Source of the DNA: Bradyrhizobium sp. 141
Lineage (GTDB): Bacteria; Pseudomonadota; Alphaproteobacteria; Rhizobiales; Xanthobacteraceae
Direction of reading: 5' to 3'
NCBI RefSeq assembly: GCF_023074055.1
Contig: NZ_JADPKR010000027.1
Span: 1 to 64,000, forward strand
DNA length: 64,000 nt
Positions 18,569-47,888 of the stretch are shown in pieces. Position 1 is the first letter of the stretch. Each line of letters starts with the position of its first letter. Under the pieces are notes generated by a model. That model ran no database searches and was not told the DNA's origin. It worked only from the letters and a program-made list of their open reading frames with translations. The position numbers and the translations under genes are program-made.

Positions 18569-18678
18569 CTAACTTCGAACGTGACTGGCGCGCGGGTCGC
18601 CCGACCGAAAGCAGAGCGCGCTTCCACACTCATCCAGGTCGATCCCGCGGGATCGGTCTCATGCGCACGGAGCGGTGA

Positions 18679-26571: not shown

Positions 26572-26584
26572 AGGGAGAATAACC

Positions 26585-27649
26585 GTGACGTTTCAAACTC
26601 GCATTCGTGCTCCGCGCCTGACCTCGACCGCCTTGATCGCCGGCGGTGCCGGCTTTATCGGCTCGCACCTATGTGATGCGCTGCTGCAGCGCGGCCACAG
26701 GGTGATTTGTCTCGACAACCTCTTCACCGGCACGATCGCAAACATCCGGCCCCTGCTCAACCACCCGAAGTTTCGCTTCGTCGAGCACGACGTTCGTGAG
26801 CCGCTGGACATCGACGAGCCGGTCGATCGGATCTACAGCCTGGCCTGCCCGGCCTCGCCGCGTCATTATCAGAAGGATCCGATCGGCACGATGAATACGT
26901 GCGTGATCGGCACCATGAACATGCTCGAGCTTGCGCGCCGCAAATCGGCTCGCGTGCTTCAGGCATCCACCAGCGAGGTGTATGGCGACCCCGAGATTCA
27001 CCCTCAGCCGGAATCCTACTTCGGCAACGTCAATCCGATCGGTCCGCGCGCCTGTTACGACGAAGGCAAGCGCGCCGCAGAGACGTTGATGTTCGACTAC
27101 CACCGGCAGCACGGAATCGAGATCAAGGTCGCGCGCATTTTCAATACTTACGGGCCCCGCATGCTGGAGAACGACGGACGGGTCGTCTCGAACTTCATCG
27201 TGCAGGCCCTGCGGGGCGAACCGATCACGATCTACGGCCGCGGGACTCAGACCAGAAGCTTCTGCTTCGTCGACGATCTCGTGCGCGGATTGCAGCTTCT
27301 GATGGAGAGCCCGGCCGAGGTCACCGGGCCATGCAATCTGGGAAACCCGCATGAGGTCACGATCGAAGCCATCGCCCGCGAAGTTCTGTCGTACACCCGT
27401 TCGGCGTCCCCGCTTCGGTTCGAGGCGATGCCCAAGGACGATCCCAAACGTCGCAAGCCCGTCATCGACATCGCCGAACGGTCGTTGGGATGGCGTCCGC
27501 GCGTGCCGCTGAAAGACGGGCTGCAGGCGACCATCGCCTATTTCGCGCTTCGCATTGCGACCGATGCCCCGGCGTTGACGCCGGCAATCTCCGCGGGCAG
27601 GACGGGCCGTACGGCCCGCGGACGACTGACCCTTGCGGAGCGCACGTGA
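26585..27649 (+). CDS. UDP-glucuronate decarboxylase-type SDR (UDP-xylose synthase)
   Basis: Makes UDP-xylose from UDP-glucuronate through a 4-keto intermediate. The 354-residue protein has [17 protein letters not shown] at the N-terminus, [19 protein letters not shown] (a strong UXS-family signature), [10 protein letters not shown], the catalytic Tyr-x3-Lys in [13 protein letters not shown], and [11 protein letters not shown]. Start is GTG at 26585 with GGGAG eight bases upstream. The C-terminal 25 residues are Arg/Thr/Ala-rich and beyond the normal family end. Last gene of the cluster. Because UXS supplies a pentose donor, it fits a xylose- or arabinose-containing product. Confidence 0.85.
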
Positions 27650-27849
27650 TGACGTTCTAAAACGCTAAAACAACCCCATGCACAGTAGCCGGGCCAAGCA
27701 AAATCAAAGACTTGACTGCGCGTCGCCGGACGTTGCGGATTTTGCGAACTCCTGATTGCGACGTCGGGCAAATCAGGTGCATGATGTCATCCTCGCTCGC
27801 TGCCGTTTGGAAGACGGCCGATGCTTCATCCTCGGCCGTCCTGGCCCCA

Positions 27850-28919: not shown

Positions 28920-29930
28920 ATGCCAGCCTGGGTGCAAAAGGTTCTGGTGCTATGCACGACCTGGCTGCTGGCCGCATGCGCGGGCCGGCAGTCCGCACTC
29001 GACCCGCAGGGGCTGCAATCCGGCCAGATCAGATCCACGTTTTTCATTTTCCTCGCCGTCTCGGCGATGGTCTGGATCGCGGTTGTCCTCGTCCTCGCCG
29101 TTGGAATGCTGCGCCGGAAGCGTGCCACCCATACACCGCTCGACCTCCACGAGGGCTTCGAGCAACGTGCAGGCCGCCTCGTCCTGGGGCTCGGCGTGGC
29201 AACAACCGTGATCGTGCTCGGGCTCTCCTTTGTCAGCTATGCCGGCCAGCGCAACGTCTTCGCCAAGGACGAGCACGCCCTCACACTCAAGATCATCGGC
29301 CACCAATGGTGGTGGGAGGTTCACTATGAAGCCGACAGTCCGCACCAGAGCTTCGTGACTGCGAACGAGATCCGGATCCCCACCGGTCAACCGATCAAAG
29401 TCGAGCTGGAATCGGCCGATGTGATCCACAGCTTCTGGGTGCCCAGCCTGACCGGCAAGATGGACCTCATCACCGGCCAAAAAAACGAGCTGCAGTTCAC
29501 GGCGAAGAATGCCGGGGTCTATCGCGGACAATGCGCCGAGTTCTGCGGCCTCCAGCATGCCCACATGGCTTTTGATGTCATCGCCTTGCCGCCGGACGAA
29601 TTCGGCCGCTGGCGCGATCACCAGAACCAGAGCGCGCAAAGCCCTGCAGATCAGCTCGGCAGGCAGGGCGAGGCGTTGTTCCGCGCGCGGGGCTGCGCGC
29701 TGTGCCACAACATTAGCGGCACGCTGGCCGGCGGGCAGCTTGGTCCCGATCTCACGCATGTCGGCAGCCGCACGACCATCGCGGCGGGAACGCTGCCGAA
29801 CAATCCAGCGACGCTCGGTGCGTGGATCTCCGACCCTCAGCATATCAAGCCGGGCAATCTCATGCCGAAGATGCCGCTGCAATCGAACGAGCTCATTGCG
29901 ATCCTTCACTATCTGGAGCAGCTCAAGTGA
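28920..29930 (+). CDS. ctaC: Cytochrome c oxidase subunit II with fused cytochrome c domain (caa3 type)
   Basis: Receives electrons and passes them through CuA to subunit I. The 336-residue precursor has a lipoprotein signal (TTWLLAACAG, lipobox Cys at 20), two membrane helices (about 40-62 and 84-104), the WWWEVHYE segment, and the CuA ligands in HSFWVPSL and C205-AEFC-GLQHAHM (C205, C209, His213, Met216). A cytochrome c domain follows with CALCH (C259, C262, H263) and a Met ligand in NLMPKMPL. The fused cytochrome defines caa3-type oxidases, which can take electrons directly from other c cytochromes, such as those encoded 8 kb downstream. Two bases separate it from subunit I. Confidence 0.9.
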   Translation: MPAWVQKVLVLCTTWLLAACAGRQSALDPQGLQSGQIRSTFFIFLAVSAMVWIAVVLVLAVGMLRRKRATHTPLDLHEGFEQRAGRLVLGLGVATTVIVLGLSFVSYAGQRNVFAKDEHALTLKIIGHQWWWEVHYEADSPHQSFVTANEIRIPTGQPIKVELESADVIHSFWVPSLTGKMDLITGQKNELQFTAKNAGVYRGQCAEFCGLQHAHMAFDVIALPPDEFGRWRDHQNQSAQSPADQLGRQGEALFRARGCALCHNISGTLAGGQLGPDLTHVGSRTTIAAGTLPNNPATLGAWISDPQHIKPGNLMPKMPLQSNELIAILHYLEQLK

Positions 29931-29932
29931 GC

Positions 29933-31840
29933 ATGGCCGCTGAAAAAAACCAGCTGCGCGACGACGTCCTGAACGGCTTCCAGCTCTCCCAGCAGCTCGA
30001 GCGGATCTGGCGCACACCATCGGGGCTGCTCGGCGCGCTCATGTCGGTGGATCACAAGGTCGTGGGGCGCCGCTACATCGTGACCGCGTTCGTCTTCCTG
30101 CTTCTCGGCGGCATTCTTGCGGTCCTGATGCGCATTCAACTCGCCGGCCCCGAGAACACTTTCCTGTCGGCGGACAAATACAACCAGATCTTCACGATGC
30201 ACGGCTCGACCATGATGTTCCTGTTCGCCGTGCCGGTCATGGAGGCGTTCGCCGTCTACCTCGTGCCGCTGATGGTCGGCACGCGCAACATCGCCTTCCC
30301 ACGCCTGAATGCCTTCAGCTACTGGATGTTCCTGTTCGGAGGCTGCTTCCTCTGGATCTCCTTCGCGCTCAATGTCGGTCCGGACGTGGGTTGGTTTGCC
30401 TACGTTCCGCTGTCCTCGTTGCAGTACACGCCGACGAAGCGTCCAGACGTCTGGGCGCAGATGATCACCTTCACCGAGGTCGCCGCGCTCGCCGTTGCCG
30501 TGGAGATCATCGTGACCGTGTTCAAGCAGCGCGCACCCGGCATGACGCTCGACCGCATCCCCCTCTTCGTCTGGGCGATGCTGGTCACGGCCTTCCTGGT
30601 GATGTTCGCAATGCCCTCGATCATGGTGGCATCGACGTCGCTGATCCTCGACCGCCTCGTCAATACGCGCTTCTACGACTCTTCCTCGGGGGGCCATCCC
30701 CTGCTCTGGCAGCATCTGTTCTGGTTCTTCGGCCATCCCGAGGTTTACATCATCTTAATTCCGGGCACCGGCATGGTCTCGGCAATCCTCGCGACGTTCG
30801 CCCGCCGGCCGGTGGTCGGCTATCCCGTCGTCATTCTCTCGCTGATCGCGACCGGCTTCCTGTCGTTCGGTCTGTGGGTCCACCACATGTTCGTGACGGG
30901 CCTGCCTCAACTTGGCGCCGGCCTGTTCACGGCGTCCAGCATGCTGATCGCAGTGCCGAGCGGCCTGCAGATCTTCTGCTGGCTGGCGACGCTCTGGGAC
31001 GGACGGCCGGTCTACCGGACGCCGCTGCTGTTCGTGCTCGGCTTCATCGTGATCTTTGTGCTCGGCGGGCTGTCCGGCGTGATGGTCGCCTCGGTGCCGA
31101 TCGACACCCAGGTGCACGACACCTATTTCGTTGTCGCCCACTTCCATTACGTGCTGATCGGCGGCGCCGTCTTCCCGCTGATCGGCGCGGTCTATTACTG
31201 GTTTCCCAAGATCACCGGGCGCATGCTGAGCGAAAGGCTCGGGCGCTGGAATTTCTGGCTGGCCTTCATCGGCTTCAACATCGCGTTTTTTCCGATGCAT
31301 ATTCTCGGACTGATCGGAATGCCGCGCCGGGTCTACACCTACACCGCCGACATGGACTGGGCGCATCTGAACCTGCTGTCCAGCGGCGGCGCGCTCATCT
31401 TCGCGCTCAGCTTCGCGCTGCTGCTCATCAACGTCGTTTACAGCGCGCGAAAGGGCACGCTCGCCGGCGACAATCCCTGGAACGCCTCGACGCTGGAATG
31501 GGCGACCGCCTCGCCGCCGCCGCCGCAGAACTTCGACCGCATTCCCGTCGTCAAGCACCGCGACCCGTTGTGGGCCGATGGCGAAAGCCTGCCCGTGGTC
31601 GCGGGCCTCAGTGCAGAGCGGCGGGAGGTGCTGCTGACGTCGCTTGCGGAAGCCGAGCCGCAGGTCCGCGAGGCTTCGCCCGAGCCGAGCATCTGGCCGC
31701 TGCTCGCGGCGATCGCGATGACGATCTTCTTCATCGGATCGATCTTCACGCCCTGGGCCGTGCTGTGGGGCACGCCGCCGATGGCCATCGCCCTGATCGG
31801 CTGGTTCTGGCCGACCGGCAGCAAGGAGGACGAGGCGTGA
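29933..31840 (+). CDS. ctaD: Cytochrome c oxidase subunit I (caa3 type)
   Basis: The haem-copper catalytic subunit, about 635 residues. Haem and CuB ligands are visible: FTMHGSTMMF (low-spin haem His), FFGHPEVYI (CuB His, with the cross-linking Tyr two residues on), WVHHMFVTG (CuB His pair) and VVAHFHYVL (haem His pair). Twelve membrane helices can be traced, plus an extra C-terminal pair after a hydrophilic loop (about 530-590), ending PMAIALIGWFWP; this extension resembles the subunit III-like tail of some caa3 enzymes. The start at 29933 was chosen as the first ATG after the subunit II stop. GTGA overlap with the next gene. Confidence 0.9.
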   Translation: MAAEKNQLRDDVLNGFQLSQQLERIWRTPSGLLGALMSVDHKVVGRRYIVTAFVFLLLGGILAVLMRIQLAGPENTFLSADKYNQIFTMHGSTMMFLFAVPVMEAFAVYLVPLMVGTRNIAFPRLNAFSYWMFLFGGCFLWISFALNVGPDVGWFAYVPLSSLQYTPTKRPDVWAQMITFTEVAALAVAVEIIVTVFKQRAPGMTLDRIPLFVWAMLVTAFLVMFAMPSIMVASTSLILDRLVNTRFYDSSSGGHPLLWQHLFWFFGHPEVYIILIPGTGMVSAILATFARRPVVGYPVVILSLIATGFLSFGLWVHHMFVTGLPQLGAGLFTASSMLIAVPSGLQIFCWLATLWDGRPVYRTPLLFVLGFIVIFVLGGLSGVMVASVPIDTQVHDTYFVVAHFHYVLIGGAVFPLIGAVYYWFPKITGRMLSERLGRWNFWLAFIGFNIAFFPMHILGLIGMPRRVYTYTADMDWAHLNLLSSGGALIFALSFALLLINVVYSARKGTLAGDNPWNASTLEWATASPPPPQNFDRIPVVKHRDPLWADGESLPVVAGLSAERREVLLTSLAEAEPQVREASPEPSIWPLLAAIAMTIFFIGSIFTPWAVLWGTPPMAIALIGWFWPTGSKEDEA

Positions 31841-32436
31841 GGCAGACCATCGTACGCGACGTCTCTGACCTGCCGACCTTCGGCTTCGGCCCGCGCAGCG
31901 GACCCTGGTGGGGCGCCATGGGCTTCATGGCCCTGGAGGGCATGGGCTTCGCGATCGCCGTCGGCGCCTACCTCTACCTCTATGCCATCAATTCGAGCTG
32001 GCCGATCGGTGCGTCACCGCCCGATCTATGGCCCGGCACGCTCGAGGTCGTGCTTTATCTGCTCAGCATCATTCCCAACGAGTACACCAGCCGCGCGGCC
32101 CATCGGTTTGATCTGCGCAAGGTCCGTGTCGGCCTGATCGTGATGTCGCTGATCGGCATCGTGCTTCTGGTGCTCCGCGGCTTCGAGTTCGCGCATCTCA
32201 ACACCCGCTGGGACAATTCGGCCTACGGGTCGATCGTCTGGCTCATCCTTGGATTGCACACCACGCATCTCGCAACGGACCTGGGCGACACCGTCGTGCT
32301 GGCAGTGCTGATGTTCACGCGGCACGCCAAGCCGCGTCGCTTCAGCGACGTGACCGACAACGTGTTCTACTGGAATTTCGTCGTGCTTGCCTGGTTGCCG
32401 CTCTATGTCCTGCTCGATTGGGTGCCGCGCCTATGA
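31837..32436 (+). CDS. ctaE: Cytochrome c oxidase subunit III
   Basis: A 199-residue membrane protein with about five helices. It reads GPWWGAMGFMALEGMGFAIA, then ALYLLSI-type helices, NTRWDNSAYGSIVWLILGLH and HLATDLGDT, the subunit III core with its conserved Glu and His/Thr residues. It lacks the first two helices of seven-helix forms, as is usual in caa3 oxidases where subunit I carries extra helices. Start GTG at 31837 overlaps the subunit I stop, with AAGGAGGA upstream. Ends overlapping the next gene by four bases (ATGA). Confidence 0.8.
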   Translation: MRQTIVRDVSDLPTFGFGPRSGPWWGAMGFMALEGMGFAIAVGAYLYLYAINSSWPIGASPPDLWPGTLEVVLYLLSIIPNEYTSRAAHRFDLRKVRVGLIVMSLIGIVLLVLRGFEFAHLNTRWDNSAYGSIVWLILGLHTTHLATDLGDTVVLAVLMFTRHAKPRRFSDVTDNVFYWNFVVLAWLPLYVLLDWVPRL

Positions 32437-32786
32437 CCGACACTGACGGACGCAGCAGACTGCTGTATTGGGCCGGCGTCGCCCTTGGGCCGCTGGCATG
32501 GGGAGTCAATCTGCAAGGCATCTACGCGCTCGCGCATTTCTCTTGCGAGACCACCAGAACCTCCGGCGCGATCATGAGCGCTGCTCTGGCTATTATCGCC
32601 CTTTTGGGCACGGCCATTTCGGCCCGCGCGGTTCGGCGCAGAGCCGGGGCTGAATGGGCCGATGCACAAGGCGGCGGGCCGAGCACCTTCATGGCCTGGC
32701 TCGGCGTCGGCAGTGGCGTGCTGTTCGCGCTGGTCATTGCCAACCAGCTCGCCGCCTCCCTGATGATCAGCCCATGCCTGCGCTGA
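32433..32786 (+). CDS. Small membrane protein of the caa3 operon (117 aa), unknown function
   Basis: Three predicted membrane helices (LLYWAGVALGPLAWGVNLQG; IMSAALAIIALLGTAISAR; FMAWLGVGSGVLFALVIANQ). The conserved Cys in AHFSCETTRTSG and another in ISPCLR are spaced as in a membrane protein with a periplasmic loop. It sits between subunit III and CtaG with overlaps on both sides, so it is very probably an accessory or assembly component. I recognise no named family. Confidence 0.65.
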   Translation: MTDTDGRSRLLYWAGVALGPLAWGVNLQGIYALAHFSCETTRTSGAIMSAALAIIALLGTAISARAVRRRAGAEWADAQGGGPSTFMAWLGVGSGVLFALVIANQLAASLMISPCLR

Positions 32787-33697
32787 GGATTACGATATTG
32801 TTGTTGGCGCTGCTTGCGCAGCCGGCCCTTGCCCACGGCCTTTCGGATGTCGATACCGGATCGCTCTGGAGCTACGATCCCTGGCTGCTCGCTCCGCTCT
32901 ACGCGGTCGGCATCGCCTTCTATATCGGGACGCAGCGTCTGTGGCGACAAGCGGGCGGAGGCCGGGGCGTCAGCTTCCGCCAGGTCGGCGCATTCTGGAC
33001 CGGCTGGCTGATCACGGCGCTTGCCACGACTTCGCCGCTGCACTGGCTCGGCGAACGCCTCTTTACCGCCCACATGGTCGAGCACGAATTGCTCATGGTC
33101 GTCGCCGCTCCGCTGATGGCCTATGCACGGATCAACGGCCCTCTGCTGTGGAGCCTGCCGTCATCACTTCGACCGGCAGCCGGCCGGTTTCTCAATCTGC
33201 CGATATTGGCCGTGCCGTGGCATTTCATCAGCCATCCTGTCAGCGCAACAGCGCTTCATGGCGCAGCGCTGTGGGCCTGGCACGTCCCGCCTCTGTATGC
33301 CTGGGCCTTGGAAAATCCCGGGGTGCATCGTTTCCAGCACATCAGCTTCTTTGCGACGGCGCTGTTGTTCTGGTGGGTGCTGCTCTACGGCCGTGGACAG
33401 GATCGCAGCAGCCGCGTGCGCGACGGCATCGCGATCGGCTGCCTCTTCATCACGATCCTGCATTCCGGCGTGCTCGGCGCCCTGCTGACGGTGTCGCCGC
33501 GGCTCTGGATTCCGGCTCAGGGCGCATTGGCCGGTGAATTCGGCCTGTCGCCGCTTGAAGATCAGCAGCTCGCGGGCATCCTGATGTGGGTGCCGATGGG
33601 CATCCTGTACACGGGCGCGGCGTTGTTCTTTGCTCATCGGTGGCTGACGGCGAACGATGCGCATACGCGCCTGTCGCTCGCGCGGAATGCCGGCTGA
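32774..33697 (+). CDS. ctaG: Cytochrome c oxidase assembly protein CtaG (caa3_CtaG type)
   Basis: An integral membrane protein of 307 residues needed for copper insertion or assembly of caa3 oxidases. It shows a signal-like first helix, then SYDPWLLAPLYAVGIAFY, FTAHMVEHELLMVVAAPL (conserved His/Glu pair in helix 3), WHFISHPVSATALHGAALWAWHVP and HRFQHISFFATALLFWWVL; the His-rich helices are the family hallmark. It starts at 32774, overlapping the previous gene by 13 bases. This is the caa3-specific CtaG and is unrelated to the Cox11-type CtaG. Last gene of the oxidase operon; a small terminator-like hairpin follows its stop. Confidence 0.85.
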   Translation: MPALRITILLLALLAQPALAHGLSDVDTGSLWSYDPWLLAPLYAVGIAFYIGTQRLWRQAGGGRGVSFRQVGAFWTGWLITALATTSPLHWLGERLFTAHMVEHELLMVVAAPLMAYARINGPLLWSLPSSLRPAAGRFLNLPILAVPWHFISHPVSATALHGAALWAWHVPPLYAWALENPGVHRFQHISFFATALLFWWVLLYGRGQDRSSRVRDGIAIGCLFITILHSGVLGALLTVSPRLWIPAQGALAGEFGLSPLEDQQLAGILMWVPMGILYTGAALFFAHRWLTANDAHTRLSLARNAG

Positions 33698-33712
33698 GAG
33701 AGGCTCTCTTTT
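33696..33712 (+). terminator. Small terminator-like hairpin after ctaG
   Basis: GAGAG, 3-base loop, CTCTC, followed by TTTT, directly at the ctaG stop. The stem is short (5 bp), so strength is doubtful. Confidence 0.35.
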
Positions 33713-33716
33713 CATA

Positions 33717-33742
33717 GGAACCGCAGGTTCGAGTCCGACGTT
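33717..33742 (+). promoter_or_regulatory. EcfG-type general stress promoter before the GlcG/HbpS-like gene
   Basis: GGAAC at 33717-33721, 17-base spacer, CGTT at 33739-33742, 32 bases before the ATG at 33775. A stretch inside the spacer (GGTTCGAGTCC) looks like a tRNA T-loop but has no supporting cloverleaf. Confidence 0.55.
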
Positions 33743-33774
33743 CGCCTGCCAAACATCAGATCCCCGGAGGCGAT

Positions 33775-34566
33775 ATGGGTAAACTCTCCGTCATGGCGGC
33801 AGCTGTAGTGGCAGCCGCCGCATCTTCGATGTCGGTAAGCTCCCTCGCACAGGACCAGCCCCATCCGGCACTGTCCTGCCCAGTCGACCATGATCAGCTC
33901 GCCGACACGCTCAAGAAGAACGTGAAGCCGGGTGGCGGGCCGAGCAATGGCGGATTGGACAACAACGAATGGGCTGCCGTCGTCAATCGGCAGGGCATTG
34001 TCTGCGCGGTCGCCTATAGCGGCAGCAAGGTCGACGACCAGTGGCTGGGCAGCCGGGCCATCGCGGCCGAGAAGGCCAACACGGCCAATGCATTCAGCCT
34101 CAAGGACAAGGCGATCGCGACGGCCAACCTCTATGCCGGCGCGCAGCCTGGCGGGTTCCTGTTCGGTGCGGCCCTCGGCAACCCGCCGTCCCCGGAGGTC
34201 CTGTACGCGGGAACACCGGAGCAATTCGGCACGTCCCACGATCCGATGGTGGGCAAGCCGATCGGCGGGACGATCGTGTTTGGCGGCGGCTTGGCCCTCT
34301 ATGACGGCAACGGCATTGCCGGCGCGCTGGGCGTCAGTGGCGACAGCTCCTGCGCGGATCACAACGTGGCCTGGCGCGTGCGTCATCAGCTCGGGCTCGA
34401 CCGCGTGCCGGCCGGCGTCAGCCCCAACATGAAAGACGCGATCATCTATGACATCGGGCCCGACGGCAAAAGCCCCTCGGGATTCGGGCATCCCAAGTGT
34501 AACGGCAAGGAAGATCAGATCGCAGTCGATCTCGGCGCCGGCGTATCCGGCAATGTGGTGAGATAG
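33775..34566 (+). CDS. Secreted GlcG/HbpS-type (DUF336) protein
   Basis: A 263-residue exported protein. The signal peptide runs to about residue 26 (VVAAAASSMSVSSLAQ). The body has the GlcG/HbpS landmarks QGIVCAVAYSG, ANTANAF, ALGNPPSPEVLYAG and GGTIVFGGGLALYDGNGIAGALGVSGDSSC. Family members bind haem or small acids; several occur beside PQQ alcohol dehydrogenases, as here. Conserved Cys residues (CPVDHD, GIVCAV, SSCADH, HPKCNG) could form disulfides in the periplasm. RBS CGGAGG. It has its own EcfG-type promoter, ahead of the alcohol dehydrogenase genes. Confidence 0.75.
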   Translation: MGKLSVMAAAVVAAAASSMSVSSLAQDQPHPALSCPVDHDQLADTLKKNVKPGGGPSNGGLDNNEWAAVVNRQGIVCAVAYSGSKVDDQWLGSRAIAAEKANTANAFSLKDKAIATANLYAGAQPGGFLFGAALGNPPSPEVLYAGTPEQFGTSHDPMVGKPIGGTIVFGGGLALYDGNGIAGALGVSGDSSCADHNVAWRVRHQLGLDRVPAGVSPNMKDAIIYDIGPDGKSPSGFGHPKCNGKEDQIAVDLGAGVSGNVVR

Positions 34567-34581
34567 CCCGCCTCTGCTCTT

Positions 34582-34605
34582 GGAACCAAGCGGAGGCGCA
34601 ACGTT
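34582..34605 (+). promoter_or_regulatory. Weak EcfG-like promoter candidate before xoxF
   Basis: GGAAC at 34582-34586 and CGTT at 34602-34605, but the spacer is 15 bases, one or two short of optimal. About 65 bases before the xoxF start. Confidence 0.25.
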
Positions 34606-34669
34606 TGTACGTTCGCAAACCGGCCTGCAACGCGGCACGGCCTCATCACTGCCGTGGAGATCTTTACAT

Positions 34670-36517
34670 ATGTTAGTGCGTGGTCTCACGCGTTTGCTGA
34701 AGCGGATTCCAGTTGTCCTCTGCGCTTGCTGTGCCGTGCTGTCGTCGGCGTCCGCCCAGAGCGATCTCGCCGGCCGCATGAAAGATCCGGGCCAATGGCC
34801 GATGGCGGCGCGCGACTACGCCAATACGCGCTACAGCGAGCTCGACCAGATCAACGCGTCCAACGCATCGCGCCTTCAGCTTGCCTGGACCTTCTCGGTC
34901 GGAGCCGACCGCGGCCAGGAGGCGGCGCCGCTGGTGGTCGACGGCACCATGTATGTGGTCGGCCCCTATGCAGGCCCCTACCCCAACCGCGTCTTCGCGC
35001 TCGATGCCACGACAGGCGAGTTGAAATGGTCCTATGCGCCGAAGCCCGAGCCTGCGGCCGCAGGGGTTGCCTGTTGCGACGTGGTCAGTCGCGGGCTCGC
35101 GTTCGACAACGGCAAGATCTTCCTGAATACGCTCGACAACCACACCGTCGCGCTCGACGCCAAGACCGGCAAGGAGCTGTGGCACACCAAGCTCGGGGAG
35201 ATCAACAAGGGAGAGACCATCACGATGGCGCCCGTGGTGGTCAGGGGCAAGGTGCTCGTCGGCAACAGCGGCGGCGAGATGGGTGTGCGCGGCTGGGTCA
35301 CCGCGCTCGATGAAGACACCGGCGCGATCACGTGGCGCGCCTACGCCACAGGGCCGGACAAGGACGTCCTGATCGGCGACGACTTCAAGCCCTTCTATGA
35401 CAATCTCAGGGGCAAGGATCTCGGCGTGAAGACGTGGCCCGCCGACCGCTGGCAGGTTGGCGGCGGCACCATGTGGGGATGGATCTCCTACGATGCCGAG
35501 CTCAATCTGATTTACTACGGCACCGCCAATCCGAGCCCGTGGAATGCCAACCAGCGCAGTGGCGACAATCTCTGGAGCACCACGATCTTTGCCCGTGATC
35601 CGGACACCGGCCGCGCCAAATGGGCCTACCAGATCAACCCGCACGATTTGTTCGACCACGACGAGATCAACGAGAACGTGCTGGTCGATCTCGAGCTCAA
35701 CGGGCAGACGCGCAAGGTTCTCATCCACCCGGGCCGCAACGGCTATATGTACGTGATCGATCGCGCCACCGGTGAAGTGATCTCGGCGGACGCCTTTGAA
35801 TTCATCAACGCCTATAAGGGCGTCGATCTCAAGACCGGCAAGATCATTCCGAACGAGGAGAAGACGCCGCTCGCCGGCAAGACCGTCGAGAACATCTGCC
35901 CGGCCGCGCCGGGCGCCAAGGACTGGCAACCGACCGCATGGTCGCCCCGCACCAAGCTGCTCTATGTGCCGCACCAGCATCTCTGCATGAATTTCAAGGC
36001 ATCGCAGGTCGGCTACATCGCCGGCACGCCCTATGTCGGCGCCGATGTCGACATGTACGCAGGTCCCGGCGGCCATCGCGGCGAGTTCATGGCGTGGGAC
36101 CCCGTCGCACGCAAGAAGGTCTGGGAGATCCGCGAGAAGCTGCCGGTCTGGAGCGGCGCGCTGGTGACTGCCGGCGACGTCGCCTTCTACGGCACCATGG
36201 ATCGCCTGTTCAAGGCAGTGGATGCCAAGGATGGGCATGTGCTCTGGCAATTCCGCGCCGGCTCCGGATTCATCGGCCAGCCGATTTCCTATCGCGGATC
36301 CGACGGACAGCAATACATCGCGATCCTGTCCGGCGTCGGCGGCTGGCCGGGCGTCGTCGCCAATGCGGAGGTGGATCAACGCGTGCGCAACGGCGCGCTG
36401 GGCTTCACCGGCGCCATGCAGGACCTGCCGTTTTACACCGCAGGTGGCAGTGAGCTGCTGGTGTTCAAGCTTGGCGGCGCGAATGGTGAGGAGAGCAGCC
36501 ATGCGCCTGCGAAATAA
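34670..36517 (+). CDS. xoxF: PQQ-dependent alcohol dehydrogenase of the lanthanide (XoxF) type
   Basis: Oxidises methanol or a similar alcohol in the periplasm, passing electrons to cytochrome c. A 615-residue precursor with a signal peptide (about 1-26, ending SSASAQ) and eight W-motif propeller blades. Adjacent cysteines C135-C136 (GVACCDVV) form the disulfide over PQQ. Metal ligands are E203 (NSGGEMGVRG), N287 (TANPSPWN) and the catalytic D329. D331, two residues later (LFDHDEIN), is the extra Asp that known lanthanide-dependent enzymes have and calcium-type MxaF (Ala) lacks. The start ATG has GGAGA upstream; earlier in-frame codons lack a signal. xoxJ overlaps its end by 17 bases. No mxa genes are in the window, consistent with the lanthanide form. 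Confidence 0.85.
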   Translation: MLVRGLTRLLKRIPVVLCACCAVLSSASAQSDLAGRMKDPGQWPMAARDYANTRYSELDQINASNASRLQLAWTFSVGADRGQEAAPLVVDGTMYVVGPYAGPYPNRVFALDATTGELKWSYAPKPEPAAAGVACCDVVSRGLAFDNGKIFLNTLDNHTVALDAKTGKELWHTKLGEINKGETITMAPVVVRGKVLVGNSGGEMGVRGWVTALDEDTGAITWRAYATGPDKDVLIGDDFKPFYDNLRGKDLGVKTWPADRWQVGGGTMWGWISYDAELNLIYYGTANPSPWNANQRSGDNLWSTTIFARDPDTGRAKWAYQINPHDLFDHDEINENVLVDLELNGQTRKVLIHPGRNGYMYVIDRATGEVISADAFEFINAYKGVDLKTGKIIPNEEKTPLAGKTVENICPAAPGAKDWQPTAWSPRTKLLYVPHQHLCMNFKASQVGYIAGTPYVGADVDMYAGPGGHRGEFMAWDPVARKKVWEIREKLPVWSGALVTAGDVAFYGTMDRLFKAVDAKDGHVLWQFRAGSGFIGQPISYRGSDGQQYIAILSGVGGWPGVVANAEVDQRVRNGALGFTGAMQDLPFYTAGGSELLVFKLGGANGEESSHAPAK

Positions 36518-37340
36518 TCGTGCCGCCATCATCGCCGGCGTTGTCCTGTCGCTCGCGACGAGTGTGGCGGCAGCCACGGACGGCGCGGTTCGGGTTTGCG
36601 CCGATCCGAACAATTTGCCGTTCTCGAACAGCGCCGAGGCGGGATTCGAGAACAAGCTTGCCGCCATGGTGGCCGCGGCTTTCGGCGAGCAGGTCTCCTA
36701 CACCTGGTGGGCGCAGCGACGCGGCTTCATCCGCAACACGCTGAAAGCGGGAAAGTGCGATGTGGTGATGGGCATGCCCGCCGGCTACGATCTCGTGGAG
36801 ACGACCAGGCCCTATTATCGCTCGGCTTATGTCTTCGTCACGCGCCAGGATCGCCAGCTCGATCTCTCCTCGCTGCTTGACCCGCGCCTGCACGATCTTA
36901 CGATCGGCGTGCATCTGATCGGCGATGACGGCAACAATCCGCCGCCTGCCCAGGCGCTCGGCAACCACGGCATCGTCGACAATTTGCGCGGCTACTCGAT
37001 CTACGGCGATTATCGCGAGGCCAATCCGCCGGCGCGCTTGATCGAGGCCGTGGAGAGCGGCGAGATCGATGTCGCCGCCGCCTGGGGACCATTGGGGGGG
37101 TATTTCGCGCAGCGCTCCCCAGTGCCGCTGACGGTCACGCCGATCCGGGACACCGAGCGCTTTGCGCCTCAGCAATTCCAGTTCGCCATCGCGATGGGCG
37201 TGCGCAAAGGCGACCAAGCCCTGCGCGATCGGCTCAATGCCTTCATTGACGAGCACCGGTCCGAGATCAACGCCTTGCTGCGAACCTACGGCGTGCCTCT
37301 GGTGAATCTGCCCGTCACGGCCTCGGGAGGACATCAATGA
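36501..37340 (+). CDS. xoxJ: XoxJ-type periplasmic solute-binding-like protein
   Basis: A 279-residue exported protein with a signal peptide ending about ATSVAAA. The body is a family-3-like binding fold: RVCADPNNLPFSN, FENKLAAMVAAAFGEQ, YTWWAQRRGFIRNTLKAGKCD, then DVAAAWGPLGGYFAQ and the C-terminal LLRTYGVPLV. This is the MoxJ/XoxJ group (quinoprotein-dehydrogenase-associated binding protein), thought to help activate or mature the dehydrogenase rather than import a nutrient. It starts inside the end of xoxF and overlaps the cytochrome gene by four bases, so the three are co-translated. Confidence 0.8.
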   Translation: MRLRNNRAAIIAGVVLSLATSVAAATDGAVRVCADPNNLPFSNSAEAGFENKLAAMVAAAFGEQVSYTWWAQRRGFIRNTLKAGKCDVVMGMPAGYDLVETTRPYYRSAYVFVTRQDRQLDLSSLLDPRLHDLTIGVHLIGDDGNNPPPAQALGNHGIVDNLRGYSIYGDYREANPPARLIEAVESGEIDVAAAWGPLGGYFAQRSPVPLTVTPIRDTERFAPQQFQFAIAMGVRKGDQALRDRLNAFIDEHRSEINALLRTYGVPLVNLPVTASGGHQ

Positions 37341-37966
37341 TGTCGTTGCGCGCAAGCATGCTGTCGTTGCTGCTGTTGTTCGCGCCCAGCGGCGCAACAT
37401 TCGCCCAGCAGACCCTGCCGCAATCCCAGGAGGCGCAGCAGCCAGTGCTGGGGCCGCGCCCCAATTTCGGCGGCAGCGTCGGCAACGGCAGGCCCGGCGT
37501 CTTCATGCAGGTTCCGGTCAGCCATCTGTTTCCCGGCGCGCAGCCGGACCCGCCGCAGATCAAGAACCCCGTGCAAGGCGATCCGAACGCCGAGCAGCGC
37601 GGCATGACCTATTACGTCAACTTCAACTGCGTCGGCTGCCACGCGGCCAATGGCGGCGGCGGCATGGGTCCGGCGCTGAGCAACAGTACCTTCACCTATG
37701 GTGCGCAGCCCGCGAATATCTATCTCTCAATCTACCAGGGACGGCCGAACGGCATGCCGGCCTGGGGTGGCGTGCTGCCCGACAGCGTGATCTGGGATCT
37801 CGTCACCTATATCGGCAAGCTCAGCAACGAGCCGAGCCGGCAATGGGGCCGCACCTTCTCGGCCAACCCGCTGTCGCCCGAGGTCGAGCAAGTCCCGACC
37901 GAGCAGGTCTCGACGACCGATCCCTGGTCCGCCACCAAGGCCTTCAGTTTCGGCCAGAAGCCGTGA
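37337..37966 (+). CDS. Periplasmic c-type cytochrome, likely electron acceptor of XoxF (XoxG-like)
   Basis: A 209-residue precursor with signal peptide (LLLLFAPSGATFAQ). One haem-c site, CVGCH, lies in TYYVNFNCVGCHAANGGGG (about residues 99-110), and a distal Met appears in NGMPAWGG. The long N-terminal arm (ALxPRPNFGGSVGNGRPG, PDPPQIKNPVQGD) and the C-terminal extension are typical of cytochromes linked to PQQ alcohol dehydrogenases. RBS GGAGG. It follows xoxJ by overlap. The likely path is XoxF to this protein, then to the second cytochrome or the caa3 oxidase. Confidence 0.75.
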   Translation: MMSLRASMLSLLLLFAPSGATFAQQTLPQSQEAQQPVLGPRPNFGGSVGNGRPGVFMQVPVSHLFPGAQPDPPQIKNPVQGDPNAEQRGMTYYVNFNCVGCHAANGGGGMGPALSNSTFTYGAQPANIYLSIYQGRPNGMPAWGGVLPDSVIWDLVTYIGKLSNEPSRQWGRTFSANPLSPEVEQVPTEQVSTTDPWSATKAFSFGQKP

Positions 37967-37982
37967 TTGAACGGAGATGTCG

Positions 37983-38360
37983 ATGATGAGCCCCGTCGCA
38001 CGATTGCTCGTTGCCGCGCTACTCGCGCTCGCGACCGCTTCTTGCGAGCAAGGCAAGGCTGCGGGCCCGGACAATTTCATGGGCGACGCGCGTCGTGGCG
38101 CCGACCTCGTCAAGCAGTACCGGTGCGGCGGCTGTCACGATATCCCGGGCATCGCCGGCGCCGAAGGCAATGTCGGTCCACCGCTGCATCGCATTGGGGC
38201 GCGGACTTACATTGCCGGCTACATCCAGAACTCGCCGGACAACATGGCCGACTGGATCGAGGATCCGCAGCGGGCGTTGCCCGGCAACGCGATGCCGAGA
38301 ATGGGTATCCCGCAGAAGGACGCACGCGACATCGCGGCATTCCTCTATACGCTGAAGTAG
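37983..38360 (+). CDS. Small class I cytochrome c, probable lipoprotein
   Basis: About 125 residues. The N-terminus MMSPVARLLVAALLALATASCE has a lipobox-like end (TASC), suggesting membrane anchoring by lipid. The haem motif is CGGCH (KQYRCGGCHDIPGI), NVGPPLHRIG follows, and the Met ligand is in NAMPRMGIP; the end FLYTL is the normal class I helix. Start chosen at 37983 for spacing from GGAG; an ATG at 37977 is too near the binding site. It lies ten bases after the previous cytochrome gene and may relay electrons to the oxidase. Confidence 0.75.
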   Translation: MMSPVARLLVAALLALATASCEQGKAAGPDNFMGDARRGADLVKQYRCGGCHDIPGIAGAEGNVGPPLHRIGARTYIAGYIQNSPDNMADWIEDPQRALPGNAMPRMGIPQKDARDIAAFLYTLK

Positions 38361-38365: not shown

Positions 38366-40755
38366 ATGACTCCGACATCTCGTTCAACACACTGGTTCCG
38401 GGACGCGTCATGGCTGGCCATTACCATCGTGGTTGTTGCCATCATGGGCCTTGCGCTTGCCGGCGGCGGAGCCTGGCTCGCCGCGCTCGGCGGCTCGGTC
38501 TAGTATCTGGTCGCTGGCGCCGTGCTCCTGCTCACGAACTGGCTACTCGCGATCCGCCGCGCCGAGGGTTCTGGGTCTATGCCGCGCTGCTGCTCGGCAC
38601 GATGGTGTGGGCGATCTGGGAAGTCGGCCTCGATTTCTGGACGCTGACGCCGCGCGGCGATGTGCTGGCGCCGCTGGGCGTATGGCTGATGCTGCCGTTC
38701 ATCGCGACCCATCTTGGGCCGCGCTGGCGTATCGCGCGATGGGCCCTCGGTGTCGTTCTGATCGCCGCTGCCGTCGTCCTGGCCGTCTCCCTCACCAGCG
38801 ATCGCCACGACCTCGCGGGCACATTGGCGGAGGACCAGACAACCGGCGCCATTGCCGCGTCCGAGCCGGCCGTCAGCTCGGCCGCCGAGAACTGGACCGC
38901 CTATGGCCGCAGCGGCTTCGGCACGCGCTATTCGTCGCTGAGCGAGATCACCGCGGACAACGTCAAGAACCTGAAGCTCGCCTGGGAATTCCGCACCGGC
39001 GACCACAAGGGTCCGGGCGATCCCGACGAGATCACCAACCAAGCGACGCCGCTAAAGGTGGGCGATCTGCTCTACACCTGCTCGCCGCATCAGATCGTGT
39101 TCGCGCTCGAAGCCGCCAGCGGGAAATTGCGCTGGAAGTTCGATCCGCAGGTCCGGCACAACAGGGCCTCCCAGCACATGACCTGCCGCGGCGTAGCCTA
39201 TCACTCTACCAGGCCCGGCGCAGTGACGGCCGACGGCACGCCGGCGCCAGCCGAATGCGCCAAGCGCATTTTCCTCCCGACCAACGATGGACGGATGTTC
39301 GCGCTGGATGCGCAGAGCGGCAAGCCTTGCGAAAGTTTCGGCAATCATGGCCAGATCGATCTCAAGGAGGGGAGCGAGATCCAGATGCCCGGCTTCTACG
39401 AGGGCACCTTGCCGCCCGTCGTGATCGACAAGGTGCTGATCGTCGGAGGCGCGGTGATCGACTTTATTCCGACCGCGTGCCGTCAGGCGTGATCCGCGGC
39501 TTCGACATCTATTCCGGCCGGCTGATCTGGGCCTTCGATGCCGGCAATCCTGATCCGAACGAAATGTCCTCGGCCTCGTATCATTTCACCGCCGGCTAGC
39601 CCAATTCCTGGAGCATCGCCGCAAGCGACGAAAACGTCGGTCTCGTCTACGTCCCGCTCGGCTCGAGTTCGCCGGATATCTGGGGCGGCGGCCGCTCGCC
39701 CGAGAAGGAACGTTACGATTCGGCGATGGTGGCGCTCGAGATCACGACCGGAAAGCTGCGCTGGTCGTTCCAGAACGTACACCACGATCTCTGGGACATG
39801 GACATGCCCTCGCAGCCGAGCCTGGTCGATCTGCGGTCCAGCAACGGCGTGATGCTGGCGATCTACATCCCGGCCAAGACCGGCGACATCTTCGTGCTCG
39901 ACCGCCGCGACGGGCATCAACTGGTGCCTGCGCCCGAGAAGCCGGTCCCCCATGGCGCTGCGCCCGGCGACCGCCTCTCCGCGACCCAGCCCTTCTCCGA
40001 TCTGAGTTTCCGTCCCCGCGCCATGCTGACGGATGCGCAGATGTGAGGCAGCACGATGTTCGACCAGCTTGTCTGCCGCATCAAGTTCAAGCGCCTGCGC
40101 TACGAGGGGCCGTTCACGCCCCCATCGGAACAGGGCACGCTGGTCTTCCCCGGCGATTTCGGCATGTTCGAATGGGGCGGCATTGCCGTCGACCCCGAGC
40201 GTCAGATTGCCATCGCCAATCCGCAATCCATTCCCTTCATCTCGCGCCTGGTGCCGCGCGGAAAAGACAATCCGGCCGCGCCGAACGCGGCGCATCTGCC
40301 GGGCACCGAACTCGGGGTGCAGCCGATGTACGGCGTTCCCTACGGCGTCGATCTCGGCATTTTCCTCTCGCCGCTCGGCATCCCCTGCCTCGCGCCACCC
40401 TGGGGCAACATCGCGGCGATCGATCTCAGGACGCACAAGGTGGTCTGGCAGCACCGCATCGGCACGATCCGCGACCAGGCCCCGCTGCCGTCGCCGTTCA
40501 AGTTCGGCGTCCCCATGTTGGGTGGGCCGATCGTGACGGCCGGCGGCGTCATCTTCATCACGGGAACGATGGACGGGCGTTCAACGTTCGCGATGGCAGG
40601 CAGCTATGGGAGGATCGCCTGCCGGCCGGCGGCCAGTCGATGCCGATGACATACAAGCCGGCGGCAAACAATACGTCGTGACGGTGGACGGCGGCCATGG
40701 CTCGTTCGGCACGAAGCTCGGCGATTATGTCCGCGCCTACGCGCTGCCGAAATGA
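38366..40755 (+). pseudogene. gcd: Membrane-bound PQQ glucose dehydrogenase, inactivated
   Basis: The five-helix N-terminal domain is readable (ITIVVVAIMGLALAGGGAW, then WAIWEVGLDFWTLTPRGDV) but interrupted by TAG at 38501-38503, where the family normally has Trp or an aromatic. The PQQ propeller follows (ENWTAYGRSGFGTRYSSLSE, SPHQIVFALEAASGKLRW), with a frameshift near 39470, a TAG at 39597-39599 (just after HFTAG), a TGA at 40044-40046 in place of the Trp of DAQMWG, and a late frame change near 40590. The normal end (VVTVDGGHGSFGTKLGD) is present. With three stops and two shifts, the gene is dead. It follows the intact xox genes directly. Confidence 0.85.
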
Positions 40756-42525
40756 TCACGCCCGGCGTCGCCTCGCCCGCGCCGGCCCGCGCGGCGTGCG
40801 AAGAACCTGCGAGGCGGCGACGGCGACGCAAGCCGCAATCCCGAGCGCGGCAAGGCCCGTGCTGATCACGCCGGCCGGTGGAAGTTGCTTCCGCGCCAGC
40901 CAACCGCCATCGACCGATCTGCCCTGCGGACCCGCTTCGACCATGGTGCCCTCGCTGCTCCTTGCGGGGCGCGCACGCGACAGCAGGAATTGGAAAGCTG
41001 CCCCCAGCACATTCTCGGTCGCCTGCGGAGCCATCGCATATGCGAATTGACCTACACGCGCGGGCCAGCCGACTGCGACCTCGTCACGCGGCGCGCGGAC
41101 AAGGCGAACGAATGTTTCGGCAACGTCATCCGACTGGTAGAGCAGCGGACCCGGATCGAGCGTCCGCCCCGACATGTTGGCGCCGTGGACGAAGCCCGGC
41201 GTATCGACCATGGCGGGAAAGACGCCGCAGACGTGGATGTCGCGATGCGCCCGGAGCTCCTGGCGCAGGCTTGCGGTGAAACCGCGCAGGCCGAACTTGC
41301 TCGCAATATACGCTGCAGCGAATGGTGTCGGCGCCCAGCCGCCCAGCGAGATGTTGGTGATCAGGACGCCGCGCTTCTGGCGCAGGAAGATCGGCAGCAC
41401 CGCGTGGGCACCATGCATGGTGCCGAGGAGATTGACCTCGATCGTCCGGCGGTGAAGCGCGATATCCGCATCCTGGTAAGCCCCGAAAACACCTGTGCCG
41501 GCGTTGTTGATCCAGACGTCGATGCCGCCGAAGGCATCTTCGGCCTGCTTCGCCAATCGCTGCACCGCCTCGGCGTCGGTGACATCGGTCGGGACGGCCA
41601 GCGCGCGGCCGCCCAAAGCCTCACATTCTGCCGCGAGGCTCGTCAGGATCACACCACGGCGCGCCGCCAGGATCACGCTTGCACCTTTGCGGGCAAACGC
41701 CAGCGCCGTGGCACGGCCGATGCCGCTGGAAGCGCCGGTGATGACGACGCGCGTGCCGGTGATCTGTCCCTGCTCACGTCCCGCAGCATCCGCGGGAACA
41801 AGCCAGCGCAACGATTGCCGCAGACGCTCGGTCCCGTCCGTTTGGAACCAGTCGCCATGGCCGAAGATCACACGTTCGGGCGCCAGGCTCAAAAGCCGCT
41901 CAGCCGCAGCCCGGACCGAGCGGCCCCCGAGACGCAGCAGAAGGCGAAGGTAGACCGGCGCCTTGCCGTCCGGCCTGGAGATGCCGAGCAGGTTTGCCGC
42001 AGGCTGGTTCGCAGTGCTGAGATGGCCGGGATCGAGGTTCTGCACGAGATCTGTCAGGACCAGCGTTCGGCTGCGCCTGTCGAACAGCTCGATCTCGCAG
42101 AACATCGGGGCATTCACCGCCACGGTCTGGAAATCGCCGCTCCATTCCTCGGGCGTGACGTCGCCCAGCTCGCGGTCGATGCGGATGCCCGCCGCGCGAA
42201 CCTGCCTGCGCTGGGAGAGACCGCGGGCGGCGAATATCCTCGCTTGCGGCAGTGCCCGCTGCCAGTCGGCGAGGAACATCCAGTGGGCGATGTTCGGCGC
42301 CAACAGATATTTTATCGCGCCCAACCGCTCCAGCTCGTGACGCAGAGCCGGGGAATATCGCACTGGCGAATGCAGCACGAGATCACCGTTCGACAGCCGG
42401 AGGACGACCATGCGGATGGGCAATTCCAGACCGGCGGCACTGATCGGCTGGTCATCGACAATCCAGACGTCGTCTGTCACCCGGAACAGTGTGGCGAGCG
42501 ACGAAACGGCATCGAGGTTTTGCAT
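40756..42525 (-). CDS. DUF4336 (metallo-beta-lactamase-like) domain fused to a short-chain dehydrogenase
   Basis: A 589-residue protein in two parts. Residues about 1-230 are the DUF4336 domain: VWIVDDQPISAAGLELPIRM, LLAPNIAHWMFLADWQ and VIFGHGDWFQTDG, a metallo-hydrolase-like fold without the full HxHxDH motif. Residues about 255-510 are a classical SDR: VVITGASSGIGRATALAFA (cofactor loop), NNAGTGVFG, NISLGGWAPTPFAAAYIASK with Ser, Tyr and Lys in place. The C-terminus is Arg-rich with one hydrophobic stretch that may contact membrane. The ATG at 42525 has GGAAG seven bases upstream; a TTG 30 bases earlier is less likely. It meets the gcd remnant stop to stop. Substrate unknown. Confidence 0.8.
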   Translation of the reverse strand: MQNLDAVSSLATLFRVTDDVWIVDDQPISAAGLELPIRMVVLRLSNGDLVLHSPVRYSPALRHELERLGAIKYLLAPNIAHWMFLADWQRALPQARIFAARGLSQRRQVRAAGIRIDRELGDVTPEEWSGDFQTVAVNAPMFCEIELFDRRSRTLVLTDLVQNLDPGHLSTANQPAANLLGISRPDGKAPVYLRLLLRLGGRSVRAAAERLLSLAPERVIFGHGDWFQTDGTERLRQSLRWLVPADAAGREQGQITGTRVVITGASSGIGRATALAFARKGASVILAARRGVILTSLAAECEALGGRALAVPTDVTDAEAVQRLAKQAEDAFGGIDVWINNAGTGVFGAYQDADIALHRRTIEVNLLGTMHGAHAVLPIFLRQKRGVLITNISLGGWAPTPFAAAYIASKFGLRGFTASLRQELRAHRDIHVCGVFPAMVDTPGFVHGANMSGRTLDPGPLLYQSDDVAETFVRLVRAPRDEVAVGWPARVGQFAYAMAPQATENVLGAAFQFLLSRARPARSSEGTMVEAGPQGRSVDGGWLARKQLPPAGVISTGLAALGIAACVAVAASQVLRTPRGPARARRRRA

Positions 42526-42643
42526 GAACGGCTTCCAAAGCGAGACCTTGCTCAAACCGCCGGAGCGAAGCTCGTTCCTAGGAGGCCCGCCTCAAGGAAG
42601 CGACCGGATTCGCGGACCTGCTGACGGATGCCGCAGCGCTGCG

Positions 42644-45539: not shown

Positions 45540-46097
45540 TCAGCGTGGGATTTTGGTGGTGTCGATGCCGGTGCTCTCGTCAGTCTGCGCAGGAGGAGGT
45601 TTGGCGCCGCGTTTACGGTACGATGGTAAATCGCTGGCGTTTGCTGCCGGTGGGTTGCCTTCCAGTCGGGAGATGTTGCGTTCCATTTCGGCGATTTCGC
45701 GAACCTGGGCATCGATAATCCCATCGGCAAGCCTCCGCACCTCTGGATCTTTGATGTGCGCCCGCTCGCTTGTCATAATGGCTATCGAGTGATGCGGTAT
45801 CATGGCTCTCATATAAGCCACGTCACCAATCGTTTGCTGACTGCGCACGAGCCACAGCGAAGCCCCGAATACAATCACAGCGACGGCAAGAATTGCGGCA
45901 TTCAGTCGATAGCTCTTGTACATGCTGAACATGAAGCTGAGCATGACTATCGCCATCGCCGCCCCCATAAGCAGGGCCATATCGACCCGCGTCTCGCTGA
46001 AGCGCACGTGTTCCAAGGCATACGTGTTAAGGTACATCAACACGAACATCACGATGGTCGAGACCGCAATCATCGCGAAGAAGCGCGGGTACGACAT
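45540..46097 (-). CDS. Membrane protein with C-terminal DUF305 domain
   Basis: A 185-residue protein. Three membrane helices (FFAMIAVSTIVMFVLMYLNT; MALLMGAAMAIVMLSFMFSM; NAAILAVAVIVFGASLWL) precede a periplasmic DUF305 part with the signature YMRAMIPHHSIAIMTSERA (about 113-131), IKDPEVRRLADGIIDAQ, and EIAEMERNI. DUF305 proteins have a ferritin-like helical fold with conserved Met/His and are linked to metal, especially copper, handling. The ATG at 46097 has GGAGG six bases upstream; the frame extends further without a signal. Flanked by IS remains and repeats, so probably cargo of a rearranged element. Confidence 0.75.
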   Translation of the reverse strand: MSYPRFFAMIAVSTIVMFVLMYLNTYALEHVRFSETRVDMALLMGAAMAIVMLSFMFSMYKSYRLNAAILAVAVIVFGASLWLVRSQQTIGDVAYMRAMIPHHSIAIMTSERAHIKDPEVRRLADGIIDAQVREIAEMERNISRLEGNPPAANASDLPSYRKRGAKPPPAQTDESTGIDTTKIPR

Positions 46098-46167
46098 GAG
46101 CCACCTCCGCAGAGGAGACGTATTGAACCTTGCGCGGTTCCTCAGCAAGCTCGCAGTTGTCGGCTTC

Positions 46168-47772: not shown

Positions 47773-47888
47773 TCCGTTAACCAACGAATGTCCCTTCTCT
47801 AATGTTCTACACGCCCACAAAACGGCAACGAATGATCGATAGAGCTAGTCAAGACCATAGTCCCGCGAAGCCAATTTGTAGATATCGG

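Follow-up and report, generated by a model that had tools for sequence, protein, structure and literature searches.

Predicted XoxF3 methanol-oxidation module of Bradyrhizobium sp. 141

A 64,000-nucleotide stretch of Bradyrhizobium sp. 141 (assembly GCF_023074055.1, contig NZ_JADPKR010000027.1, positions 1 to 64,000 of the forward strand; hereafter the window) carries, on a probable plasmid, a well-predicted module for methanol oxidation, centered on a lanthanide-type alcohol dehydrogenase assigned to XoxF3. The module is of a known kind, because XoxF3 clusters with cox and ctaG genes have already been described, but its arrangement is new, its ancestry is mixed, and it raises one testable idea concerning a DUF336 protein. 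A preliminary description had confined the feature to 34670–38360. Its xoxF, xoxJ, and cytochrome genes are retained here, but the feature spans 28920 to 38360 and adds a caa3-type oxidase and a DUF336 gene upstream, neither of which had been mentioned, nor had a broken second pyrroloquinoline quinone (PQQ) dehydrogenase that follows. We consider it highly likely that the plasmid-borne module forms an electron path from alcohol to oxygen with a dedicated oxidase, and that its dehydrogenase and oxidase halves differ in ancestry.

The xoxF gene (34670–36517, + strand) starts with ATG at 34670 and its stop codon ends at 36517, encoding a product of 615 amino acids. The protein scored 652.6 bits against TIGR03075 (PQQ alcohol dehydrogenase; cut-off 480), far enough over the cut-off to rule out chance resemblance, and also matched PF01011. 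A motif scan detected no CXXCH, indicating a propeller without a fused haem domain. The top match in the Protein Data Bank (PDB) was 4mae with 631 bits, and every one of the 11 best PDB matches is named methanol dehydrogenase or XoxF. In a scripted alignment, E203, N287, D329, and D331 were placed with E172, N256, D299, and D301 of 4mae, which we take to be the metal and catalytic residues of that enzyme. These are exactly the positions given in the preliminary description, whose reading of a lanthanide-type alcohol dehydrogenase is also supported by the TIGR03075 score, the metal ligands, and the extra Asp (D331).

The alignment comprised 90 rows (85 proteins were extracted, from which L001, identical to the window protein, and the short L057, L076, and L083 were removed). 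Glu, Asn, and the first Asp were present in all 90 rows and the extra Asp in 89, the lone exception being the control 4tqo, presumably an MxaF, with Ala. A Ca-type MxaF identity was ruled out by the extra Asp; lanthanide use is predicted for the enzyme, and methanol is its predicted substrate. The motif around the metal Asp is F-D-H-D-E in the window, versus W-D-Y/F-D-G in four of the five PDB references and W-D-Y-A-G in the MxaF control. Position 302 (4mae numbering) was Glu in 40, and position 300 was His in 39, of the 41 rows that share 68% or more identity with the window XoxF. By contrast, the 41 rows with 52–68% identity had Glu at 302 in two and His at 300 in three, with the motif ending in Gly in 38, and the eight more distant rows had Glu at 302 in one and His at 300 in none. 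In window-type XoxF, an additional acidic residue, Glu at 302, thus adjoins the predicted lanthanide ligand.

Phylogenetic position of XoxF

The XoxF tree was reconstructed from 47 of the 90 aligned rows, picked for spread. A starred group of seven rows (support 100/98) contained the XoxF1, XoxF2, XoxF5, and MxaF references (clade labels that we assume for these PDB entries) and the XoxF5 proteins of this genome and of Phyllobacterium, and it excluded the window enzyme. The clade phylogeny proposed as a check in the preliminary description therefore sets the enzyme apart from these references, and an XoxF5 identity was ruled out; identity to the XoxF5 genes compared was approximately 48–49%. 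The window XoxF was instead positioned within a 38-row group (support 93/69) together with homologues from Acidobacteriota, Gemmatimonadota, Rokubacteria, Azospirillum, and Mesorhizobium. Published work, including PMC10875860, reports XoxF3 from Acidobacteria, Gemmatimonadetes, Rokubacteria, Verrucomicrobia, Azospirillum, and Mesorhizobium; in Acidobacteria, the cox and ctaG genes adjoin it. We call the window enzyme XoxF3 because it groups with taxa reported to carry XoxF3 and shares the cox/ctaG cluster; the xoxJ, cytochrome, cox, and ctaG genes beside it represent the XoxF3-type gene content. Two points weigh against this assignment: the 38-row group is not starred, and the name draws on taxa and published gene content in a tree whose rows are homologues without author labels and include neither an author-labelled XoxF3 nor any XoxF4. 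When weathered granite and soil were surveyed in PMC10875860, 340 of the 411 XoxF sequences were XoxF3. A possible expression analogue is a XoxF3 of Methylosinus trichosporium, which rose 7.66 log2 units with Ce (PMC12482762).

Oxidase and accessory genes

The ten genes running from coxB through the second cytochrome gene are all intact open reading frames (ORFs) on the + strand. The first, coxB (28920–29930), encodes a caa3-type oxidase subunit II with a C-terminal cytochrome c domain (CuA motif at residue 205 and CXXCH at residue 259), and its top PDB match over residues 95–336 was 2yev_B, which we take to be the Thermus caa3 oxidase. It is followed by ctaD (29933–31840), encoding subunit I with an HPEV motif at residue 268 and a TIGR02891 score over the cut-off; it lies in a longer ORF (29822–31837), and its start was set so that the gene has the 1908 bases annotated for its counterpart on plasmid p195_2 (Bradyrhizobium sp. 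195). The subunit III gene coxC (31837–32436, GTG start) has an annotated homologue in p195_1. Between coxC and ctaG, an ORF at 32433–32786 encodes a small hydrophobic protein with two Cys (C43 and C120, alignment numbering) conserved in 11 of 11 rows. Loci carrying the other oxidase type, ten in all, gave no sequence match to it, although a hypothetical gene is annotated at that place in L110 and L111. The oxidase assembly factor gene ctaG (Caa3_CtaG; 32774–33697; PF09678, 174 bits) likewise lies in a longer ORF (32654–33694), and its start was chosen by comparison with relatives. The DUF336 gene (33775–34566) lies between ctaG and xoxF.

The end of xoxF overlaps the start of xoxJ (36501–37340), which encodes a periplasmic binding protein (TIGR03871, 309 bits versus a cut-off of 212; top PDB match, XoxJ 6onp, 3.8e-47). 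This in turn overlaps by 4 bases a cytochrome c gene (37337–37966, CXXCH at residue 98), and a second small cytochrome c (CXXCH at residue 50) is encoded at 37977–38360, both recognized by profile and motif. The overlapping xoxJ and cytochrome genes that had been noted after xoxF were thus confirmed. A XoxG-like role is suggested for the first cytochrome by its position, because its top PDB matches were cbb3 oxidase subunits. Those matches, which were not to XoxG, and a score of 25 bits against the MoxG model (cut-off 148) both speak against that role. Promoter and terminator scans gave counts close to the shuffled background (3 versus 2.1 and 8 versus 6.9, respectively), and no Rfam or tRNA match was found in the window. 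Judged from its gene content, the module could link alcohol oxidation to oxygen reduction with no need for other respiratory complexes.

Linkage across relatives and comparison with known systems

The locus set was seeded by the XoxF query and limited to the best 80 matches, and thus samples close relatives only. A XoxF relative is encoded by 77 named loci, and the 60 loci spanning at least 19 kb were used for linkage counts. Among these 60, coxB and ctaD were each detected in 59, coxC in 58, ctaG and xoxJ each in 57, and the two cytochromes in 60 and 59, and all six core genes occurred together in 55. Sequence detection placed DUF336 in 48 of 60 and the small coxC–ctaG protein in 45 of 60. 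The loci span Pseudomonadota, Acidobacteriota, Gemmatimonadota, Verrucomicrobiota, Planctomycetota, and Rokubacteria. The linkage of the oxidase genes with xoxF is beyond chance.

The XoxF3 clusters of Acidobacteria, Gemmatimonadetes, and others described in PMC10875860 resemble the window in having XoxF with the lanthanide Asp, XoxG, XoxJ, CoxI–III, CtaG, and CytC, and in having a 110–130 amino acid protein between CoxIII and CtaG. The window differs from those clusters in its plasmid location, its DUF336 gene directly before xoxF, and its mixed ancestry. Its oxidase block also lies upstream, whereas it lies downstream in the Acidobacteriota and Gemmatimonadota loci examined. The XoxF5 system of Methylorubrum extorquens and Bradyrhizobium shares the enzyme family and metal residues with the window (PMC12628762). 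Unlike in the window, no cox homologues were found beside XoxF5 in either region checked (this genome and Phyllobacterium).

Different ancestries of the dehydrogenase and oxidase halves

In most Bradyrhizobium loci examined, the dehydrogenase half (xoxF and the first cytochrome) and the oxidase half (coxB, ctaD, coxC, and ctaG) have different ancestries, and the operon is therefore a chimera. The oxidase lies upstream in 26 Bradyrhizobium-type loci, whose ctaD is at least 80% identical to that of the window. Ten further loci have a close xoxF (70–87%) but a ctaD only 46–51% identical, with the oxidase downstream in nine; Bradyrhizobium sp. STM 3843 (L027), one of the ten, has an 87% identical xoxF and a 48% identical ctaD. 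Conversely, 36 loci with a more distant xoxF have a closer ctaD (55–80%).

Gene trees were compared using 40 rows for ctaD (39 in a recheck) and 16–28 rows for the other genes, and the groups for the decisive test were taken from the starred xoxF clade. In the xoxF tree, the Bradyrhizobium rows and L033 formed one starred clade, apart from L038–L042 and L110. The xoxF grouping, consisting of the upstream-type rows with L027, L033, L035, and L072 where present, was rejected by ctaD, coxC, ctaG, and coxB with log-likelihood differences of 485, 270, 102, and 80, respectively, and approximately unbiased test values (p-AU) of at most 9e-8 in each case. Instead, L027, L033, L035, and L072 joined L038–L042 and L110 with support of 100 in ctaD, coxC, and coxB, while ctaG did not recover this group (p 0.21). 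The oxidase grouping was in turn rejected by xoxF (difference 57, p-AU 9e-6) and by the first cytochrome (14, p 0.009), which supported the xoxF grouping at 86.7 (not starred). The Bradyrhizobium-type ctaD grouped with Sinorhizobium, Mesorhizobium, and Labrys at 99.6, and ctaG at 97.6. We infer, as the simplest reading, that the oxidase block was replaced on the Bradyrhizobium side.

An earlier, broad ctaD clade test (p 0.0002) leaned on the single row L111; it was withdrawn and replaced by the sharper test. In the earlier broad tests, the DUF336 tree favored the dehydrogenase side (0.023), a result that depended on two Mesorhizobium-side rows. Several results count against the chimeric reading or its polarity. 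The broad ctaD grouping without L111 costs only 18.4 log units and is not rejected (p 0.10, or 0.07 when L111 is held in); the broad xoxF grouping was absent from the xoxJ tree (p 0.16), which nevertheless rejected the Sinorhizobium-type one (3e-4); and in the broad tests coxB was undecided, while neither ctaG (0.075) nor coxC (0.058) rejected at 0.05. The groups of the sharper test, although defined by the xoxF tree, were picked after both trees had been viewed. The conflict is therefore better established than the source of the new oxidase. An old duplication of the oxidase block followed by loss could mimic an exchange between lineages, and it would fit the occurrence of two oxidase types across XoxF3 loci and of a second ctaD-like place in L048, L055, and L067. 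However, only three of the 83 loci checked overall had two ctaD places. The 36 named loci whose xoxF is at least 68% identical included no such case, and in 35 of those 36 the side and the type of the oxidase coincide; we consider duplication and loss an unlikely source of the conflict. The chimeric ancestry looks new, within literature searches that did not cover oxidase exchange itself.

A second mismatch was observed in L111, plasmid p1 of Methylocella tundrae, where xoxF groups with distant XoxF3 rows and ctaD with the other oxidase type, and where the cox genes are opposite in direction to xoxF.

Probable plasmid location and distribution

The replication and partition genes repABC (59997–63734, + strand; RepA, RepB, and RepC profiles) lie in a row on the same contig as the module, and no other RepC match occurs in the 8.51-Mb genome. 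These genes point to a plasmid, in support of the plasmid-like region described previously. No terminal overlap indicative of a circular molecule was found on the contig (67113 bp).

The nearest relatives of the module were from Bradyrhizobium. Plasmid p195_2, which was typed as conjugative (MOBP/MPF_T), covered 99% of the block at 28.9–43.0 kb with 93.9% DNA identity and protein identities of 91–100%, and 83% of the first 24 kb of the window with 92.8% identity. In the rep region, the near match took in only 24% of the query, namely repC and a hypothetical protein next to it, and similar cargo therefore seems to lie beside a different repAB. This near-identical cargo beside a differing rep region looks new; a 2025 paper (PMC12482762) refers to plasmid-borne xoxF-like genes, as data not shown. 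A second copy of the module, with 82.9% identity, was found on p195_1.

In the best 60 of 593 matching plasmid records, 19 encoded a protein at least 53% identical to XoxF, and the next among them was below 49%. Plasmids of Mesorhizobium, Sinorhizobium, Azospirillum, Methylocella, and Methylocystis also carried genes at this level (at least 53%), and cox genes lay nearby in the Methylocella and Methylocystis cases. Across 195 genomes of the genus, 39 (including this one) matched XoxF at E 1e-200 or better. Thirteen of the 39 are given as one contig, so the gene is most likely chromosomal there.

Proposed electron path and alternatives

The proposed path begins with a periplasmic PQQ dehydrogenase that would hold a light lanthanide (at D331) and oxidise methanol or another small alcohol, with XoxJ aiding XoxF maturation. 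The cytochrome c would then pass electrons on to CoxB, via its cytochrome domain, within a dedicated caa3 oxidase that probably pumps protons and in whose assembly CtaG would be used. PQQ synthesis and formaldehyde handling would be provided by genes on other contigs. A PqqE match over the cut-off was found on contig C32 rather than on the plasmid contig, glutathione (GSH)-formaldehyde dehydrogenase on C31 beside an XoxF5-type gene (49% identical to the window XoxF), and RuBisCO on C77. These are among the steps tied to lanthanide-dependent methanol growth in Bradyrhizobium in PMC12628762 (2025). With these genes located elsewhere, the plasmid alone would not confer methanol growth, and the module may have added a further route without being the source of the trait. 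The preliminary description had proposed growth or energy gain from methanol or other alcohols and a trait that could spread on a plasmid. A predicted oxidation module for the former is present, and spread is plausible for the oxidation step in view of the near-identical module on conjugative p195_2, but neither claim extends to methanol growth from the plasmid alone. The C31 region at about 83–100 kb encodes three more PQQ dehydrogenases, one of them XoxF5-type, around the GSH-formaldehyde dehydrogenase; all three have the extra Asp, and two lie on long branches.

The enzyme could be lanthanide-dependent and yet have another alcohol or aldehyde as its natural substrate, with methanol incidental and methanol growth proceeding via XoxF5 elsewhere in the genome. 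We regard this as a real possibility, though a somewhat doubtful one. The XoxF5-type gene adjoins GSH-formaldehyde dehydrogenase, an arrangement tied to Bradyrhizobium methanol growth in PMC12628762; the authors of PMC10875860 were aware of no biochemical data on XoxF3 in 2024; and an intact glucose/quinate-type PQQ dehydrogenase comes next in p195_2 and other relatives. The names of the best solved matches of XoxF, all methanol dehydrogenase or XoxF, argue against it. That the module is decaying cargo without function in this strain would suit the broken next gene and the presence of another XoxF in the genome, but with all ten genes open and XoxF 98% identical to its nearest relatives we find this very improbable. 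The electron path proposed here could be approached experimentally, since a module in a cultivable genus, in some strains on plasmids, represents a route to test the XoxF3 enzyme, its metal, and its oxidase partner.

DUF336 protein

The gene directly before xoxF encodes a DUF336/HbpS-like protein (PF03928) of 263 amino acids with conserved Cys and, as judged by eye, a signal-like N-terminus, from which the protein is probably periplasmic. Its closest solved sequence relative was the formaldehyde sensor EfgA (3.7e-5 with the protein alone). With a 26-row DUF336 profile, EfgA scored 3.1e-9, with OrfY (2.8e-7) and PduO (7.2e-7) close behind. A Foldseek search with the predicted model (mean pLDDT 74; five models, 52.6–74) ranked EfgA (6bws, 1.8e-7), OrfY (1.2e-6), PduO (7.1e-6), a putative haem-binding protein (4.0e-5), and HbpS (1e-2). 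The proposed formaldehyde pocket of EfgA comprises K57, S114, and D121, which are termed largely conserved in PMC8153426. These residues aligned with K100, S188, and D195 of the window protein, based on a chain-to-native numbering offset of 20 inferred from lengths, and were invariant in all 26 rows. The window protein thus shares the DUF336 fold and pocket residues with EfgA (6bws/6c0z), but EfgA is a cytoplasmic protein of about 144 amino acids that binds formaldehyde and arrests growth.

The conserved K, S, and D were rejected as proof of formaldehyde binding, as they are also common to all three other DUF336 proteins of this genome. Among 21 positions compared, W90 and a few others were shared with EfgA and not with these three proteins. 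Because the pocket residues are widely shared, the formaldehyde idea leans on context, namely a probably secreted DUF336 member beside an expected periplasmic producer of formaldehyde. The relatedness to EfgA suggests a periplasmic formaldehyde-binding partner of XoxF3, and membership in EfgA itself is not claimed. A DUF336 homologue was undetectable in 12 of the 60 loci, which counts against a specific link to the module. We therefore advance only as a speculative and quite unlikely proposal that, in rhizobial and related XoxF3 modules, a secreted EfgA-like DUF336 protein binds periplasmic formaldehyde as a sensor or buffer, and that the module consists of two exchangeable halves, re-paired in evolution and moved by plasmids. 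If this were true, the wiring of lanthanide respiration and periplasmic formaldehyde handling would be directly testable. A literature search found no paper pairing HbpS with XoxF, and DUF336 with methanol dehydrogenase returned the EfgA paper alone; the kinship between an XoxF3-module DUF336 protein and EfgA looks new.

Neighboring genes

The module is followed by a broken membrane-bound PQQ dehydrogenase gene of the glucose/quinate type (38390–40752, + strand), which aligned as five fragments spread over three reading frames and has a TAG within it. In nine of ten relatives, picked as carriers, the corresponding (mGDH-like) gene aligned end to end in one frame, and in L017 it was largely missing. 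It is annotated whole in p195_2, in contrast to the window, and many other Bradyrhizobium loci do not have such a gene. Because it is broken in the window, it was set aside as a working part of the module. A DUF4336 and short-chain dehydrogenase/reductase (SDR) fusion, recognized by profile, is encoded on the opposite strand at 40756–42555; the fusion gene repeatedly adjoins the module in Bradyrhizobium relatives and is treated here as a neighbor.

A cluster at 11930–27650 encodes a TIGR04290 methyltransferase, a TIGR04295 B12-binding radical SAM protein, inositol-3-phosphate synthase, glycosyltransferases, and epimerases; it also adjoins the XoxF3 module on p195_2 and is present on p195_1. 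At 45540–46148 (− strand), a partial match to the CopM metallochaperone was found (47.5 bits, cut-off 90), adjoining a citrate-type transporter gene at 46357–47820. An ArdC-type anti-restriction N-domain with a zincin metallopeptidase is encoded at 52328–53287.

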